Shown in pieces: positions 58,205-64,000 of a DNA stretch of 64,000 nucleotides (position 1 is its first letter; each line of letters opens with the position of its first letter). The notes under the pieces were generated by a model that saw only the letters and a program-made list of their open reading frames with translations, was not told where the DNA came from and did not search any database. The translations under genes and the position numbers were made by a program. Source of the DNA: Oscillospiraceae bacterium (GTDB taxonomy: Bacteria; Bacillota; Clostridia; Oscillospirales; Oscillospiraceae); assembly GCA_017416685.1 (NCBI GenBank), contig JAFQBN010000002.1:186001-250000 (forward strand), in the 5' to 3' direction.

Positions 58205-60082
58205 TTATGCGTTTGTTCCCACAACGTCGTTAACTTCGTCGGGCGTCCGGTATGTAGGCACGAGAGATTTCATCAGTTCGATAATATCCTCGTCGGAGTT
58301 TTCTTCCGTTACCGCGCGGTCCAGGACCAGCAGATGCTCCATCAGCTGTTCAGCCGTGATGGGAGACTGTTCCTCCACGAAGATCTTGCTGTTGGCAGTC
58401 TTTTGGAGATTATTATTATCGATCAGCAATTCCTCGTACAGCTTTTCACCGGGGCGCAGGCCGATCTCCACGATTTGGATATCCTCGTACGGCACAAGGC
58501 CGGACAGACGAATCAGATTTTCTGCCAGATCAAGGATCTTGACCGGTTCGCCCATATCAAGAACAAAGACCTGATTGTGCTTGGCCATGGCACCGGCCTC
58601 CAGCACCAGCTGAGCCGCCTCGGGGATCGTCATGAAGTAGCGGATGATCCGCTTGTCGGTCAGGGTAATGGGACCGCCGTTGGCGATCTGTTTTTTGAAC
58701 AGAGGCACCACCGAGCCGTTGCTTCCCAGCACGTTGCCGAAGCGCACGGCACAGAATTCCGTACTGCTTTTCTGTCGGCTTTGCAGGATCATCTCACAAA
58801 AACGTTTGGTCGCCCCCATGAAGTTGGTGGGATTGACCGCCTTGTCAGTGGAGATCATGACGAACTTCTTCACACCGAACTTCTCTGCGGCACGCACCAC
58901 GTGGTAGGTGCCAAACACGTTGTTTTTAATGGCCTCGGAAGGACACGCCTCCATCAGGGGGACGTGCTTGTGGGCCGCAGCGTGGAAGATAACGTCCGGG
59001 CGGTACTTCTCGACCACGCCGTAGGTGCGCTGCTTGTCGCGGATGGAGGCGATCTCCACCTTCAGGTCAAGCCGGCTGCCATAGGTGCGGATCAGCTCCT
59101 GCTGCAGCTCGTAGGCGTTATTTTCGTAGCTGTCGATCACGACCAGTTTGGCCGGACCAAACTTTGCGATCTGGCGGCACAGTTCGCTGCCGATGGAGCC
59201 ACCGCCGCCGGTGACCATGACCACCCGGTCTTTCAGGAAGCCGTCCATCAGTTCCATGTTCAGCCGCACCGGTTCACGGCCCAGCAGATCTTCCAGTTCG
59301 ATCTCTTTGATGTCGGAAACCTGCACACCGCCGGTAACAATGTCATAAATACCGGGGACCAGCCTGATTTCACAAGGCGTTTTCTTGCAGATGTTCAGGA
59401 TTTCCTGCTTATTCTTACCCGTACAGGTTGGGATGGCAAAAATGATCTGGGTAATGCGGAACTTCTCCACAGCTTCCGGGATCTGCTCCCGGCCGCCGTA
59501 AATGAGAATGCCGTCCAGATATTTGCCCCACTTTTCTGCATTGTCATCCACGATGCAGCAGATACGGCCCGGGATACGACCGCTGGTTGCCTTTTCGTTC
59601 AGGATGGCTCGTCCGCCCTCCCCTGCACCGATCAGCAAAATGCGTTCTTCATCGTCCTGACCGCGTTTGCGGGTGAGCATCGTCCAAAAGCGCAGCGCGC
59701 TGCGCATTCCGACCTGCATGGGCATCGCAAGCATAGGAATGATAAAGTACAGGTTGAGGGGCAGCACAATTCCGACGGCAAGCGAAACCAAACAGCCCAG
59801 TACGTACGCAACGGCAGACGACAGCGTCATACTAATCATGTCATACGCGGTAATGGCCCGCCACACGTAGTGGTACATTCTGCGCAGCCAGAACACGACC
59901 AGGGTGACCGGTATCAGCACAAGTGCAAACCGCACCATCTCTGCCAGCCACACAGTCCCATCGGATATTCTGAAATCAAACCGCAGCAGGAAGGATAGTC
60001 CACAGGCGCACAGTACGATCAGACAATCCAGCAGCACGATCAGCAGCTGCCTTCTGCGTCCGGCAGTAAAAAACGCGTTCAT
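58205..60082 (-). CDS. CapD/FlaA1-type nucleotide-sugar 4,6-dehydratase, membrane bound
   Basis: 625 aa. Four N-terminal membrane helices (about 10-130), an N-terminal Rossmann region (ILLIGAGEGGRAILNE), and the C-terminal SDR domain with VTGGGGSIGSELCRQI (about 288), and MISTDKAVNPTNFMGATKRF (catalytic region, about 405-425; the usual YxxxK is replaced by MxxxK as in FlaA1). It likely converts UDP-GlcNAc to the 4-keto-6-deoxy sugar used for capsule or surface glycan. It sits 51 bases after the RiPP-like ABC exporter gene with no terminator between, so it may be co-transcribed. GGAAAGGAGGA before the ATG. Confidence 0.93.
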   Translation of the reverse strand: MNAFFTAGRRRQLLIVLLDCLIVLCACGLSFLLRFDFRISDGTVWLAEMVRFALVLIPVTLVVFWLRRMYHYVWRAITAYDMISMTLSSAVAYVLGCLVSLAVGIVLPLNLYFIIPMLAMPMQVGMRSALRFWTMLTRKRGQDDEERILLIGAGEGGRAILNEKATSGRIPGRICCIVDDNAEKWGKYLDGILIYGGREQIPEAVEKFRITQIIFAIPTCTGKNKQEILNICKKTPCEIRLVPGIYDIVTGGVQVSDIKEIELEDLLGREPVRLNMELMDGFLKDRVVMVTGGGGSIGSELCRQIAKFGPAKLVVIDSYENNAYELQQELIRTYGSRLDLKVEIASIRDKQRTYGVVEKYRPDVIFHAAAHKHVPLMEACPSEAIKNNVFGTYHVVRAAEKFGVKKFVMISTDKAVNPTNFMGATKRFCEMILQSRQKSSTEFCAVRFGNVLGSNGSVVPLFKKQIANGGPITLTDKRIIRYFMTIPEAAQLVLEAGAMAKHNQVFVLDMGEPVKILDLAENLIRLSGLVPYEDIQIVEIGLRPGEKLYEELLIDNNNLQKTANSKIFVEEQSPITAEQLMEHLLVLDRAVTEENSDEDIIELMKSLVPTYRTPDEVNDVVGTNA

Positions 60083-60133
60083 TGTTGCACTATCCTCCTT
60101 TCCGGAATTGATTCAATCATGACAACGGAATGA

Positions 60134-61795
60134 TCAGCGGCAGCGCCGCGCAAAAATCACGTGGTCGCGGAACTCAAGCTGCTGGTCCGCCAGCTCCAGA
60201 GCGGCCGGTCTGTGGGTCACCGCGATACAGGTACATCCCGGCATCTGTGCCAATCGCGCCAGCACCGTCTGCTCGGTCTGTGCATCCATGGCAGACGTTG
60301 CCTCATCCAAAAGCAGAACGGGCGCGCCGCTGACCACCGCCCGGGCGATGGCAATGCGCTGGGCCTGTCCTTCGGAAAGGCCTTCGCCATTTTCACCCAA
60401 CACGGTGTCAAGTCCCTGAGGCAGCTGGTCCAAAAACGCATCCGTCGCGCTGACATAGACCGCTCGCTCCACGTCTTCATCGGTGGCATCCGGCTTTGCA
60501 AGCAGGATATTTTCACGCAGCGTACCGCTGAACAGCAGATTGCCCTGAGGCACATAGGCGAAGAGCCCGCGTTTGATCTCGTTCAACGCGATCTGCTCCC
60601 CGTTCTGTTCCACAAACAGCCGCCCTGTGGAGGGATGATAAACCTCCAACAAAAGCTTCAGCAGCGTGCTCTTTCCAATTCCGGATGCACCGGTGACCGC
60701 CGTGAATTTACCGAGAGGGATATGGAAGGATGCATCATCCAAAATCAGCTCGTCCTCATAGGCAAAACTCAGGTTTTCACCCATAATCATACCGTTGAAA
60801 TCGGTAATGCTTTTCTCTCTGCCGGTTTCCTGTGCATTCTCCTCAAGCTGTTCCAGTTCCATCAATCGCTCGCCGGCGGTGCACATGGCCGTGTACCGGG
60901 GCAGGATGCCCGACAGGCCCACGAAGGGAGTCTGCAGCTGAGACACGAGCTGAGTCACCGCGGTCAGGGTACCGAAGGTCATGTTCCCCTGCATCACGCT
61001 GGAGGCACACCAGATCAAAGCGATAAATCTGGCAAAGTGCAGAACCATACCTACAGCGGTATTGGCCGGAACAGACAGCCTTCTGCGCCGGTTCTGGGCC
61101 TGAGTCCTCTCTTCCAGCCGCTGCTCAGCACGTTTTTCAACCTCAGGACCCAAATTCATGGACTGGATCACCAGCAGCCGCTCCACCGACTCCTGCAGGA
61201 TGGAAAGGACCTTTCCCTCTGCCTGGCTGATGGCGCGATGGCGCTCTTTCATAATGCGCCGCAGAGCGCCGGTGCCAAACAGCATGACCGCACCCACCAA
61301 CGCGATGATCAAAGTCATTTTAGGGGTGATGCTGACCAGTACCCAACCCGCAGCGCCCAGACGCACCACCATGGAGATCAGGCTGGGTAGGATGCCTATA
61401 ATACCGTCGTTCAGCTGGCGCACGTCATTGTTCAGCCGGTTGATCAGCTCTCCGGTATGAAATTTTGTTGTCTTGGCATAATCCGCCCGCAGCAGGCAGC
61501 ACAGCAGCTGCTTTTTGCGGTCCCGGTCCAGATCCGCATGCAGGCGGTCTGTCAGGTAGCGGTTGGCTGCACTGCAAAGCAGCATGGTGCAAATGATCGC
61601 CAGCTGCACACCACAGGCCAGCACAAAGCCTTTTCTGTCCCCGCCCACGGCAGTGTCGATGACCGCCCGGCTGCACAGGGCAAACCAAACCGCGCAGAGA
61701 GCACTGCCGGCGTTGGCAAGCAGCATGCCGATGAGCATTGGCAGGCGGTTTGCCGACCGCTTTGCCGCCCAAAAAAGCACCGTACTATCTTTCAT
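60134..61795 (-). CDS. ABC exporter (permease plus ATPase) of the RiPP-like cassette
   Basis: 553 aa. N-terminal six-helix permease (about 15-300), C-terminal ATPase with Walker A GASGIGKST, Q-loop YVPQGNLLFSG, signature LSEGQAQR (usual LSGGQ, one substitution), Walker B VLLLDEATSAMD and H-loop AVTHRPA. No N-terminal C39 peptidase domain. It overlaps the S26-like gene by ATGA and has AGGAGGAAACG before its start. It probably exports the mature form of the 44-aa peptide encoded at 62662. Confidence 0.9.
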   Translation of the reverse strand: MKDSTVLFWAAKRSANRLPMLIGMLLANAGSALCAVWFALCSRAVIDTAVGGDRKGFVLACGVQLAIICTMLLCSAANRYLTDRLHADLDRDRKKQLLCCLLRADYAKTTKFHTGELINRLNNDVRQLNDGIIGILPSLISMVVRLGAAGWVLVSITPKMTLIIALVGAVMLFGTGALRRIMKERHRAISQAEGKVLSILQESVERLLVIQSMNLGPEVEKRAEQRLEERTQAQNRRRRLSVPANTAVGMVLHFARFIALIWCASSVMQGNMTFGTLTAVTQLVSQLQTPFVGLSGILPRYTAMCTAGERLMELEQLEENAQETGREKSITDFNGMIMGENLSFAYEDELILDDASFHIPLGKFTAVTGASGIGKSTLLKLLLEVYHPSTGRLFVEQNGEQIALNEIKRGLFAYVPQGNLLFSGTLRENILLAKPDATDEDVERAVYVSATDAFLDQLPQGLDTVLGENGEGLSEGQAQRIAIARAVVSGAPVLLLDEATSAMDAQTEQTVLARLAQMPGCTCIAVTHRPAALELADQQLEFRDHVIFARRCR

Positions 61796-62241
61796 CGTTT
61801 CCTCCTGAGCCGCCCGCGAAGGGCTCTCCATCTGCGCCGGATCGGACGGCTCCAGTGCCACAGACGGCAGTAAAGCCGATACGACGGCGCAGTTACGGAA
61901 ATTTCCTTTTCACCCCTGCTGAAAGATGTCACAAGGGCGATCATCTGATCCCTGCGCAGGCCGCGTTCCAGCGCAAACTGATTGTCACCGACGCAGGTGT
62001 AGGTCTCCCCCGCTTTCACGATGCGGTGGATCACAAACTGGCCATTATCCCGGCGGTACAGGGGCAGATCGTACTTGCGCAGCTTCTCCGGCGCCGGGGA
62101 CAGCGTTACGCTGTCTACCCCCTGCCGCAGCATGGGCAGCATACTGGTGCCGTTGGGCATGAAGCGCACCAGGCTGCCCCGTGCCAGCGCCTCCTGCATC
62201 ATGGGGAGCGCCTGTTCCAGCCGTACTGCAGAATCACGCAA
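61792..62241 (-). CDS. S26-like Ser/His signal-peptidase-related protein, soluble
   Basis: 149 aa. NGTSMLPML carries the nucleophilic serine of the S24/S26 clan, and FVIHRIVKAGE has His where bacterial signal peptidase I has the catalytic Lys, as in SipW/ER-type enzymes. GDNQF follows. There is no membrane segment and the C-terminus is strongly basic (RRRWRALRGRLRRKR). This makes it a cytosolic protease for the associated peptide. The start is TTG, ten bases after AAGGAG inside the end of the PqqD gene (8-base overlap); the next Met lies at codon 14, inside the alignment. Confidence 0.8.
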   Translation of the reverse strand: MRDSAVRLEQALPMMQEALARGSLVRFMPNGTSMLPMLRQGVDSVTLSPAPEKLRKYDLPLYRRDNGQFVIHRIVKAGETYTCVGDNQFALERGLRRDQMIALVTSFSRGEKEISVTAPSYRLYCRLWHWSRPIRRRWRALRGRLRRKR

Positions 62242-62494
62242 GCAGATCGCGCTCCTTCAGCATGTTCACAAAGCTCTCCGCCGCCTGCGCCGCGGTGGCC
62301 TCGTCCACGTCAAACTCAGCCAGCAGGGTCCGGGTCAGATCGGCCATCTCAGCGGGTTCTTCCAGCCGCTTCCACAGGGCGGCGGCGGTAGCGTTCAGGG
62401 TGATCACACCGTTCAGGTCTACATCGGCGCCGGCATTGACCACCACGTACTCACCGGCCACCTGACGCATGACAAATCCTTTTTTCAGTTCCAT
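62234..62494 (-). CDS. PqqD-family RiPP recognition element protein
   Basis: 86 aa. The PqqD fold (three beta strands and helices): FVMRQVAGEYVVVNAGADVDLNGVITLNATAAALWKRLEEPAEMADLTRTLLAEFDVDEATAAQAAESFVNML. LNATAAALWKRL is the conserved core. Stand-alone PqqD/RRE proteins bind precursor leader peptides and hand them to modifying enzymes or proteases. Followed by the S26-like gene with an 8-base overlap; GAGAGGAAAC before its ATG. Confidence 0.93.
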   Translation of the reverse strand: MELKKGFVMRQVAGEYVVVNAGADVDLNGVITLNATAAALWKRLEEPAEMADLTRTLLAEFDVDEATAAQAAESFVNMLKERDLLA

Positions 62495-62510
62495 ACTGCG
62501 TTTCCTCTCT

Positions 62511-62610
62511 TTCGGACAAATTCAGCCTTTTCAAACAAACGAAAACTCCGGTCTCGGACACAGGTCCGACCCTTCGGGCCCTTGTCACAAACCGAAGTCG
62601 GGGTATGGAT
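62511..62610 (-). ncRNA. Branched RNA fold between precursor gene and pqqD-like gene
   Basis: On the minus strand an 8-bp outer stem ACUUCGGU/ACCGGAGU encloses two small hairpins (GGCCC-GAA-GGGUC and GGAC-CUGU-GUCC) and is followed by UUUUCGUUUGUUUG. The shape fits a weak terminator or a processing/stability element. Found by eye; its role is unknown. Confidence 0.45.
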
Positions 62611-62620
62611 TAGGGGGTGT

Positions 62621-62646
62621 CCCCCGGCGGCTTGCGCCGCCGGGGG
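62621..62646 (-). terminator. Strong GC hairpin downstream of the precursor gene
   Basis: A perfect 11-bp stem CCCCCGGCGGC/GCCGCCGGGGG with loop TTGC, 15 bases after the precursor stop, without a U-tract. Probably a partial terminator or mRNA stabiliser that keeps precursor transcript above that of the enzymes, as is common in RiPP clusters. Confidence 0.7.
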
Positions 62647-62661
62647 AATGATTGGCAGCGT

Positions 62662-62796
62662 TTAGGAGAAATCCTCGCCGCAGCCGATCTCGTTGGGACA
62701 GCTGGGATTGTAGCCGCCCTCGCCACCGGAGGTCATGATGACGTCGACGATCTCGAACTCCTCAACGTTCATCATGGGCATCTCAAACTTCTGCAT
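62662..62796 (-). CDS. Small RiPP-precursor-like peptide
   Basis: 44 aa, too short for ordinary gene finders. Acidic leader MQKFEMPMMNVEEFEIVDVI, then TSGGEGG, and a C-terminal part YNPSCPNEIGCGEDFS with two cysteines five residues apart. GAGGTG lies seven bases before the ATG. A TATAAT lies about 40 bases upstream (62835-62840). The layout (acidic leader, Gly-rich junction, small Cys-bearing tail, followed by PqqD, protease and ABC exporter) fits an unclassified RiPP. No homology search was possible, so the peptide itself is the least certain part. Confidence 0.75.
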   Translation of the reverse strand: MQKFEMPMMNVEEFEIVDVIMTSGGEGGYNPSCPNEIGCGEDFS

Positions 62797-62836
62797 TTCA
62801 ATTCACCTCTTTCATTATGAAATTGGGGTCAGCCTA

Positions 62837-62860
62837 TTATAAAATATTTCTATTTTATAA
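62837..62860. repeat. Perfect AT-rich inverted repeat at the precursor promoter
   Basis: TTATAAAATA-TTTC-TATTTTATAA, 10-bp arms, in the 73-base gap between the SLH gene and the peptide gene. It overlaps the TATAAT -10 of the precursor on the minus strand. Could act as operator or as a weak terminator of the SLH gene. Confidence 0.5.
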
Positions 62861-62869
62861 CCGATGTAA

Positions 62870-64000
62870 TCAGTTCTTCACGATCTTCTCCAGGAAGTTC
62901 ATGAACATCTGCGCGCCTTCTGCGCGGGTAGCGGTGTGGGTGGCACCCAGGATATTGCCGCCCTTGCCGCTCATCAGGCCAGTGTTGACAGCCCACTGCA
63001 TGGCAGCGGTGGCCCACCAGGAGACCTCATCACCATCAGCAAACGTGGACAGGTCAGCAGTCTTGTTCACGTCGTAGCCCAGCGCCTTGGCATAGTTGTA
63101 GAGAATCTGGGCAAACTCCTCACGGCTGAGCAGCTTGTTGGGCTTATAGGAGCCATCGCCGTAACCGGCCACAACGTCTTCGCGGGCAGCCCAGTTAACA
63201 GCGGCAGTAAACCACTGGCCGTCAGGGATGTCGGTAAAGCCGTGGACATAGCTGTGCTTCTCGGCACCCTCCAGGTTGTAGATGACCTGAGCCAGCATGC
63301 CGCGGGTCATGGGGATCTCGGGGCTGAAGGTGGTGCCGTCGCCGGTACCGGCAAACAGGCCGCGGGCCGCAACGTAGTCAACCGCATTGTTGGCCCAGTG
63401 ACCGGTCATATCAACAAAGGTCTTGGACTTGTCGACCACCTTCACGTGGGCATCGCCGTCCAAAGTGACCACAACGCCGCCCTGGGTCAGGGTGGTACCC
63501 TTGATCACTTCCTCGGTGCCGTCGGGATGGACGATGACCACCACATTGCCGGGCTTGTCGACCTCAACGGGGATCACGATCTCGGCGCCGCCCTCGGGCA
63601 GGTCGATGTTCAGCTCGTCCTTGGTCTTGACGGGGTCGGGCAGCTTGACAGGCTCAGCGGCGTCGGCGGGAACCACGACCTCAGTCACGCTCTGCTTGCC
63701 GTTCTTGTCGGTCACGGTAGTAGTGGTGACCTCGTTGGTGCCAACGGTGATCTCGGTCTCGGTACCGGCAGCCTTGTCGGTAATAATGGTGGTAACGGAA
63801 CCGTCGGGGTTGGTCACGGTCTCGGTGGTGGTCATGCTGCCACCGCCGCCACCGCCGCCACCGCCGGTGGTCTTCTGGGTGCGCTTAACGCTGAGCTCGT
63901 AACGGCCATCATTGGAGGGCATGGTGTATTCCTTACCCACGGTCAGCGCACTGATCTGGGACGCAGTGTCCTTCAGCAGGTCTTTCAGCTCACTGTCGCC
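62870..64000 (-). CDS. SLH-domain surface protein, N-terminus beyond the window
   Basis: C-terminal 376 residues; the frame stays open to the end of the window. A nine-glycine run precedes a Thr/Val-rich region (MTTTETVTNPDGSVTTIIT repeat-like) and a Pro-rich stretch, then three SLH modules (FVDMTGHWANNAVDYVAARGLFAG, FTDIPDGQWFTAAVNWAARE, FADGDEVSWWATAAMQWAVN). Residues are GVT-rich as in linker regions of surface proteins. A GTG at 63940 could suggest a start but the frame continues upstream, so it is only internal. Binds the wall polymer; role of the rest unknown. Confidence 0.85.
   Translation of the reverse strand, partial: GDSELKDLLKDTASQISALTVGKEYTMPSNDGRYELSVKRTQKTTGGGGGGGGGSMTTTETVTNPDGSVTTIITDKAAGTETEITVGTNEVTTTTVTDKNGKQSVTEVVVPADAAEPVKLPDPVKTKDELNIDLPEGGAEIVIPVEVDKPGNVVVIVHPDGTEEVIKGTTLTQGGVVVTLDGDAHVKVVDKSKTFVDMTGHWANNAVDYVAARGLFAGTGDGTTFSPEIPMTRGMLAQVIYNLEGAEKHSYVHGFTDIPDGQWFTAAVNWAAREDVVAGYGDGSYKPNKLLSREEFAQILYNYAKALGYDVNKTADLSTFADGDEVSWWATAAMQWAVNTGLMSGKGGNILGATHTATRAEGAQMFMNFLEKIVKN

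Follow-up and report, generated by a model that had tools for sequence, protein, structure and literature searches.

What modifies a peptide whose gene cassette holds no recognisable modifying enzyme? The question is raised by a compact cassette in a 64,000-nucleotide stretch (the window, positions 186001-250000 of contig C24) of the genome of an Oscillospiraceae bacterium (G000, a 1.86 Mb draft in 38 contigs, 98.9% complete with 3.1% contamination). Its four genes all lie on the minus strand, in the order precursor peptide, PqqD-type recognition element (RRE) of ribosomally synthesised and post-translationally modified peptides (RiPPs), SipW-like S26 peptidase and ABC exporter. An earlier note on this DNA had described a 44-amino-acid (aa) peptide, a PqqD-type protein, an S26-like protein and an ABC exporter, joined by an 8-base overlap (pqqD with the S26 gene) and an ATGA overlap, and had read them as a RiPP-like cassette with an RRE, a separate leader protease and an exporter; both description and reading hold, the gene set being that of the loci for linear polyphosphorylated peptides (LPPs). 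Its suggestion that the modifying gene might lie elsewhere also fared well, as the enzyme usual at such loci, an HprK-like kinase, is found once in G000, on contig C34. Its proposal of an undescribed system is not supported, since this kind of locus was published in 2026 (PMC13381572, main text). In our view the cassette probably represents a RiPP locus of LPP type (lppA-lppB-lppS-lppD) from which lppK was deleted and which the kinase on C34 complements.

Popov et al. (PMC13381572, May 2026) describe LPPs as RiPPs whose genes, lppA, K, B, S, D and N, lie in capsule loci. Their main text reports assays in which the kinase phosphorylates a core Ser and the SipW-like peptidase cuts off the leader, aided by the RRE; the complex of RRE and leader was also solved by crystallography. 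Deletion of lppK left the precursor poorly processed in vivo, and unphosphorylated precursor was cleaved in vitro in an RRE-dependent manner. As portrayed there, LPP loci share with the window a discrete RRE, a SipW-like peptidase with Ser, His and Asp, an MsbA-like exporter, a short precursor whose leader is of YxxP type and whose tail varies, a setting of capsule genes and the lack of a cyclase; the window differs in that lppK and lppN are absent at the locus and the kinase stands in a second, partial locus. The cassette and its surroundings are as follows.

62662..62796, minus strand: lppA-like precursor peptide, 44 aa, with FEMP leader motif and candidate phospho-acceptor Ser23
62620..62647, minus strand: strong hairpin immediately 3' of the peptide gene's stop codon; it may act as a leaky terminator or have a stabilising role
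62542..62599, minus strand: second structured stretch, conserved in loci L011 and L012 and diverged in L013
62500..62513, minus strand: short match to a kinase 3' end, doubling as pqqD ribosome site, with 10/10 and 4/4 bases equal to the 3' end of the L012 kinase
62234..62494, minus strand: lppB-like PqqD/RRE protein, 86 aa; Asn34 at the position of LppB N33, Ala71 at that of D70
61792..62241, minus strand: lppS-like SipW/S26-type leader peptidase, 149 aa, TTG start, invariant Ser33, His72 and Asp86
60134..61795, minus strand: lppD-like ABC exporter; likely ATG at 61795 (ATGA overlap), start of the mechanical open reading frame (ORF) at 61861
58205..60082, minus strand: CapD/PglF-like NDP-sugar 4,6-dehydratase, also found 3' of the cassette in L115-L117 and L120
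62870..64000, extending past the window, minus strand: SLH-domain surface protein, an upstream neighbour only

We take the peptide gene to be more than a chance ORF because AGAGGTG precedes its ATG, its leader is common to two relatives whose tails have diverged, and a peptide profile (with the window peptide among its rows) finds two such genes in G000, at E 4.4e-19 and 1.3e-16. The PqqD protein matches Pfam PqqD at E 1.7e-16. The S26-like protein gives no match in a Pfam scan and a weak one, under the cut-off, to TIGR02228 (signal peptidase I; E 0.0018); none of 46 aligned sequences departs from its Ser33, His72 and Asp86, its AlphaFold2 model has a predicted local distance difference test score (pLDDT) of 89.6, and it is placed with LppS by its described features, Asp86 being the putative counterpart of LppS D93. 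In the exporter ABC_membrane and ABC_tran are matched, as is MsbA_rel at E 3.6e-73 (under that model's cut-off), and a domain scan finds no C39 peptidase domain. Profiles made from related loci for radical SAM proteins, kinases and nucleoside triphosphate (NTP) transferases give no match in the window at E 1e-5, in keeping with the earlier note's statement that it holds no radical SAM gene; a radical SAM maturase at this locus was rejected on the same profile. Beyond the window on C24, upstream of the SLH gene, lie two ORFs (L003:5568-8467) that we take to resemble a glycyl radical enzyme and its activase.

Relatives show what the window lacks. When 60 other genomes of the same genus were searched for the S26 protein, four held it, and in 4/4 a kinase gene lies directly before pqqD. 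In G029 (L012) and G052 (L011) the kinase is preceded by an adjacent peptide gene; G033 (L013) and G056 (L014) keep kinase, pqqD and S26 with no peptide adjacent, so that the small reading frame, on whose persistence beside its neighbours in near relatives the earlier note had relied, is kept in two of the four and absent from the other two. Aligned with L012 and L011, the window is conserved on both flanks of a gap, and some 700-760 bp of kinase region are gone between ~62542 and 62500..62513; ten bases that match the 3' terminus of the L012 kinase persist just before pqqD, where they double as its ribosome site. On this alignment lppK was probably lost from the window by deletion from an LPP-type locus. 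With a kinase profile G000 yields a single match, which lies on C34, and the relatives G029, G033, G052 and G056 yield one apiece; the only match of the S26 profile in G000 is the window copy. The kinase family (GKST and NDDKP invariant in 45/45, model pLDDT 95) is barely detected by Pfam, and against NCBIfam the L012 kinase reaches ScmC at E 3e-6 and HprK_rel_A at E 0.01, both far below cut-offs; the SynChlorMet/HPr-rel-A systems, compared through the NCBIfam models only, thus show a weak likeness in this kinase and differ in its partners. A sequence-profile search of the PDB with the kinase and S26 profiles gave no relevant relative.

The C34 kinase belongs to a trio of peptide, kinase and pqqD (lppA2-lppK-lppB2) that has no peptidase gene. 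The DNA that immediately follows the trio has syntenic counterparts at 81-89% identity in G029, G052 and G033; for the trio itself, blastn found no match upstream of the syntenic block in these three genomes and tblastx nothing beyond short, scattered hits. The C34 kinase shares 65-67% identity with those of L123 and L118, which belong to other lineages, and 42% with that of L012, and for this reason it looks acquired rather than duplicated. Loss of the kinase at the window and gain at C34 form the pattern expected from functional replacement; the order of these events and a function shared between the two loci are things that we infer.

In the mechanism that we propose, the PqqD-type RRE would grip the FxxP leader and present the peptide to the SipW-like serine peptidase, which would cut close to the end of the DVIMTS stretch, and the exporter would ship the acidic tail. 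The HprK-like kinase would add one or more phosphates to Ser near the cut, as in the published pathway (PMC13381572, main text), C34 supplying the kinase and the window locus the peptidase and exporter. Binding, cleavage and phosphorylation are here extrapolated from the homologues assayed in that paper, and for the C34 kinase acting in trans, as for a link between product and capsule, we reason purely from context. The two loci probably complement each other, since the sole detected kinase lies in the C34 partial locus.

The precursors fit this scheme in outline. Among 61 peptides the leaders are conserved and the tails variable and acidic (mean D+E 26%, K+R 2%), and 40 of the 61 have a Ser 19 or 20 residues past the leader aromatic (counted by a script that wrongly placed the C34 peptide among the 21 without); in the window peptide this is Ser23, which by analogy to S3 of LPP is a phosphorylation candidate. 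The window leader, FEMPMMNVEEFEIVDVIMTS, keeps the Pro of the LPP consensus and has Phe for Tyr, and the remainder differs.

How common the gene set is was surveyed from two sides. A PqqD search across the family gave matches in 137 of 300 genomes; 46 loci inspected from it, a non-random set of top PqqD matches, both G000 loci and four relatives chosen by S26, include 36 with an HprK-like kinase, 27 with an S26-like protein and 22 with both. Relatives of the S26 protein occur in 118 of 297 genomes of the window's order at E <=0.001 and in 94 at <=1e-20. Of the best 80 of 187 confirmed S26 loci, 73 hold pqqD anywhere in the locus, 59 a kinase, 42 an ABC gene, 31 a peptide match and 20 an NTP transferase; many are from Oscillospiraceae/Clostridia metagenome-assembled genomes of the ruminant gut, and Eubacterium callanderi FD and Candidatus Formimonas warabiya are also present. 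Where S26 and pqqD occur together (146 loci, some of them doubled, e.g. L011/L116 and L012/L115, as also in the set of 142 below), a kinase lies within 5 kb in 114, a peptide found by hidden Markov model (HMM) in 40 and both in 37, the commonest order being peptide-kinase-pqqD-S26-ABC. The association of peptide and pqqD that the earlier note looked for therefore stands in kind, homologous peptides occurring with pqqD, and falls short in extent, with a peptide near only 40 of the 146.

Three side observations come from the same survey. PqqD loci without S26 (L048, L053, L062, L070 and others) form a second RiPP-like class, with precursors of ~83-100 aa that have an MKKxYxKP leader and Cys-containing tails; most have an HprK-like kinase and a radical SAM gene beside PqqD. 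A radical SAM gene replaces the kinase at L129:2069-4131 and stands beside it at L123:1815-5528, which suggests that modifying enzymes are swappable. Finally, peptide-kinase-pqqD-S26 is found at L187 in a record titled Lentisphaeria, which may be due to transfer beyond Bacillota or to faulty binning.

Does the change from Tyr to Phe in the window leader have a counterpart in the RRE? In the LPP complex, as its authors describe it in the main text, D70 of LppB forms a bond with leader Tyr-16, and the kink at Pro is held in place by N33 (PMC13381572). For an alignment of RREs we took 42 non-redundant loci, of which 38 have S26, three are of radical SAM type and one is the C34 trio, and compared each RRE with the best nearby peptide; the solved RREs nearest by sequence are TbiB1, PbaB1, TfuB1 and LppB 9x8z (E 8.5e-9 to 5.4e-4). 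The N33 position is Asn in 42/42. At the D70 position the 29 loci with a Tyr peptide have D (22), H (5) or G (2), and the 13 with a Phe peptide have A (9), S (2), C (1) or Y (1), so that leader aromatic and RRE residue track each other in 40 of the 42. Taken ungrouped, the mutual information of the D70 column with the aromatic has z 15.4, against 6.1 for the best of 84 other columns, and D alone separates the classes (22/29 vs 0/13; Fisher p 3e-6). The window pair is F/Ala and the C34 pair Y/His, and the window RRE (Ala, FEMP) and C34 RRE (His, YEEP) are predicted to prefer different leaders.

Precursor genes away from any such cassette offered a second view of the pairing. The peptide profile, whose rows came from eight of the 20 genomes searched, has matches in 19 of them at E <=10 and in 16 at E <=0.001, and several genomes hold more than one. 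Among 21 fetched loci with unlinked precursors 19 were usable (in L106 and L110 no motif-bearing peptide was seen); these 19 peptides, 4 Tyr and 15 Phe, come from 12 genomes in six genera, and 19/19 match the prediction from the S26-linked RRE, the only RRE considered in each genome. Peptide matches whose loci were not fetched, among them additional copies in G245 and G273, stood outside this comparison, and the unlinked leaders helped to build the peptide HMM, not the aromatic/RRE rule. Counted per genome, the three D genomes are exactly the three Tyr-peptide genomes, which has 1 chance in 220. Unlinked precursors may explain the absence of an adjacent peptide at L013 and L075: in G033 an unlinked peptide gene was detected (E 2e-4), with a motif that suits the RRE of this genome, and in G056, which is 86% complete, the profile search found no peptide gene. 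Many machines have no precursor beside them, and the scattered precursors probably act in trans. As a side observation, weak matches on contigs C15 and C43 of G245 (E 1e-4 to 0.29) mark three and four precursor-like genes, unlinked and lying close together like small tandem arrays.

The RRE-leader code, the residue at the D70 position against the leader aromatic, is new in this analysis. The words FxxP and phenylalanine are absent from the main text of PMC13381572, a literature search with the leader strings returned only unrelated papers, and the terms kinase and peptidase are absent from PMC12710340.

A number of observations weigh against an LPP-type pathway completed by the C34 kinase, or against the co-variation just described. 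The grouping of D with H (27/29 Tyr loci vs 0/13 Phe loci; Fisher p 4e-9) was chosen post hoc, with the data already seen. Relatedness among the loci weakens the co-variation evidence: the RRE tree is poorly resolved, with nine Y/F changes on the best tree and at least three on starred (well-supported) branches, three independent starred pairs agree in 2.9/3 on average but are too few for significance (p 0.25), and with D alone in place of D/H only 0.8/3 starred pairs differ in the RRE residue. The differing leader preferences predicted for the two G000 RREs might be an obstacle if the kinase depends on its own RRE. The window precursor has FxxP and another tail where the LPP consensus is YxxPxVLxHQxIxFETxxS, lacking HQxIxFET, and its RRE has Ala at the D70 position (compared with the main text of PMC13381572). 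An lppN-like NTP transferase has no match in the window, to which that search was confined. As G000 is a draft in many contigs with some contamination, a kinase could be absent from the assembly, or the gap could be a misassembly. Poor processing without lppK in the published system means that the locus may be crippled unless helped in trans. Finally, machinery that lacks a nearby kinase is no rarity: among the 142 S26+pqqD loci whose sequence reaches 1.5 kb or more upstream of pqqD, 28 have none within 5 kb, and the pathway may not always need the kinase.

This last count bears on a different account, in which the window belongs to a branch that does without the kinase: its product would be a linear peptide, signal- or bacteriocin-like, released by the protease and left unphosphorylated, and the C34 trio would be unrelated. 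The window's peptide, RRE, peptidase and exporter genes are all open; the 40 loci with peptide, S26 and pqqD include three without kinase (the window, L142 and L129), and L142 is likewise peptide-pqqD-S26, with no kinase on its contig; the RRE-dependent cleavage of unphosphorylated precursor in vitro would also suit such a branch. The kinase is present, however, in all four same-genus relatives, the candidate acceptor Ser23 is retained, and the published processing in vivo was inefficient without LppK (PMC13381572, main text); we regard this account as a possible but distinctly less favoured one. An LPP locus in decay, whose remaining genes drift after loss of the kinase while the acquisition at C34 is independent, would agree with the missing kinase region and the lack of an NTP transferase in the window. 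The four remaining genes are nevertheless open, with catalytic residues and overlaps conserved, and the window pqqD is 87% identical to that of L115, so that decay seems to us improbable.

A lasso peptide cluster whose cyclase and B2 peptidase lie elsewhere in the genome is suggested by the lasso-like RRE and the YxxP-type leader. By the lasso ring rule an acidic residue is expected at core positions 7-9, and the window core, if cut after TS, has none there. Transglut_core3 (B2) has no match above cut-off in G000, where Asn_synthase (PF00733) gives partial matches only, over 40 to 63 profile positions; with cyclase and B2 not found, as far as a draft genome allows, we reject this explanation as very improbable. 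Paeninodin-type lasso loci resemble LPP-type loci, in the accounts excerpted from PMC5067487 and PMC7533575, in their PqqD-type B1 and in HprK-like kinases and NTP transferases as common accessories; no macrolactam cyclase or B2 was found here, and paeninodin RREs have Gly where the window RRE has Asn (PMC13381572, main text).

The DNA between the genes and the surroundings of the loci were surveyed as well. A gap of 40-700 nucleotides (nt) behind the peptide occurs in 18 of the 42 peptide loci, and 17 of these 18 fold more strongly there than shuffles (z < -2); seven others have gaps of 4-25 nt, and 17, in which the next kinase or pqqD is further off or not found, were skipped. A simple reading is a leaky terminator that yields more precursor than enzyme; an Rfam search of window positions 60000-63200 gave nothing significant (best E 0.55). 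Capsule-type genes, sought with HMMs derived from the same 46 inspected loci, accompany 17/27 S26 loci and 4/19 PqqD loci without S26 (Fisher p 0.007), and are present in 29 of the best 80 S26 loci. CapD-like genes, whose product the earlier note named as a possible modifier, are frequent neighbours of the cassette, which fits the capsule-locus setting described in the main text of PMC13381572.

Tentatively, and with rather less confidence than we place in the complemented LPP locus, we suggest that Oscillospirales have a distributed RiPP system, in which one RRE, peptidase and exporter would serve scattered precursors under a code of D/H with Tyr and A/S/C with Phe. The window genome would then hold two circuits (F/Ala and Y/His), insulated at leader recognition and sharing a kinase and a peptidase/exporter encoded at different loci. 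A gut cassette with "no modifying enzyme" is now placed in a pathway described in 2026, and it offers an example of how the enzyme that defines such a locus can be lost. The lasting value lies in the RRE-leader code and the trans-acting precursors implied by it: the code is simple and testable, and across Oscillospirales it may allow orphan precursor genes to be matched with their machines.

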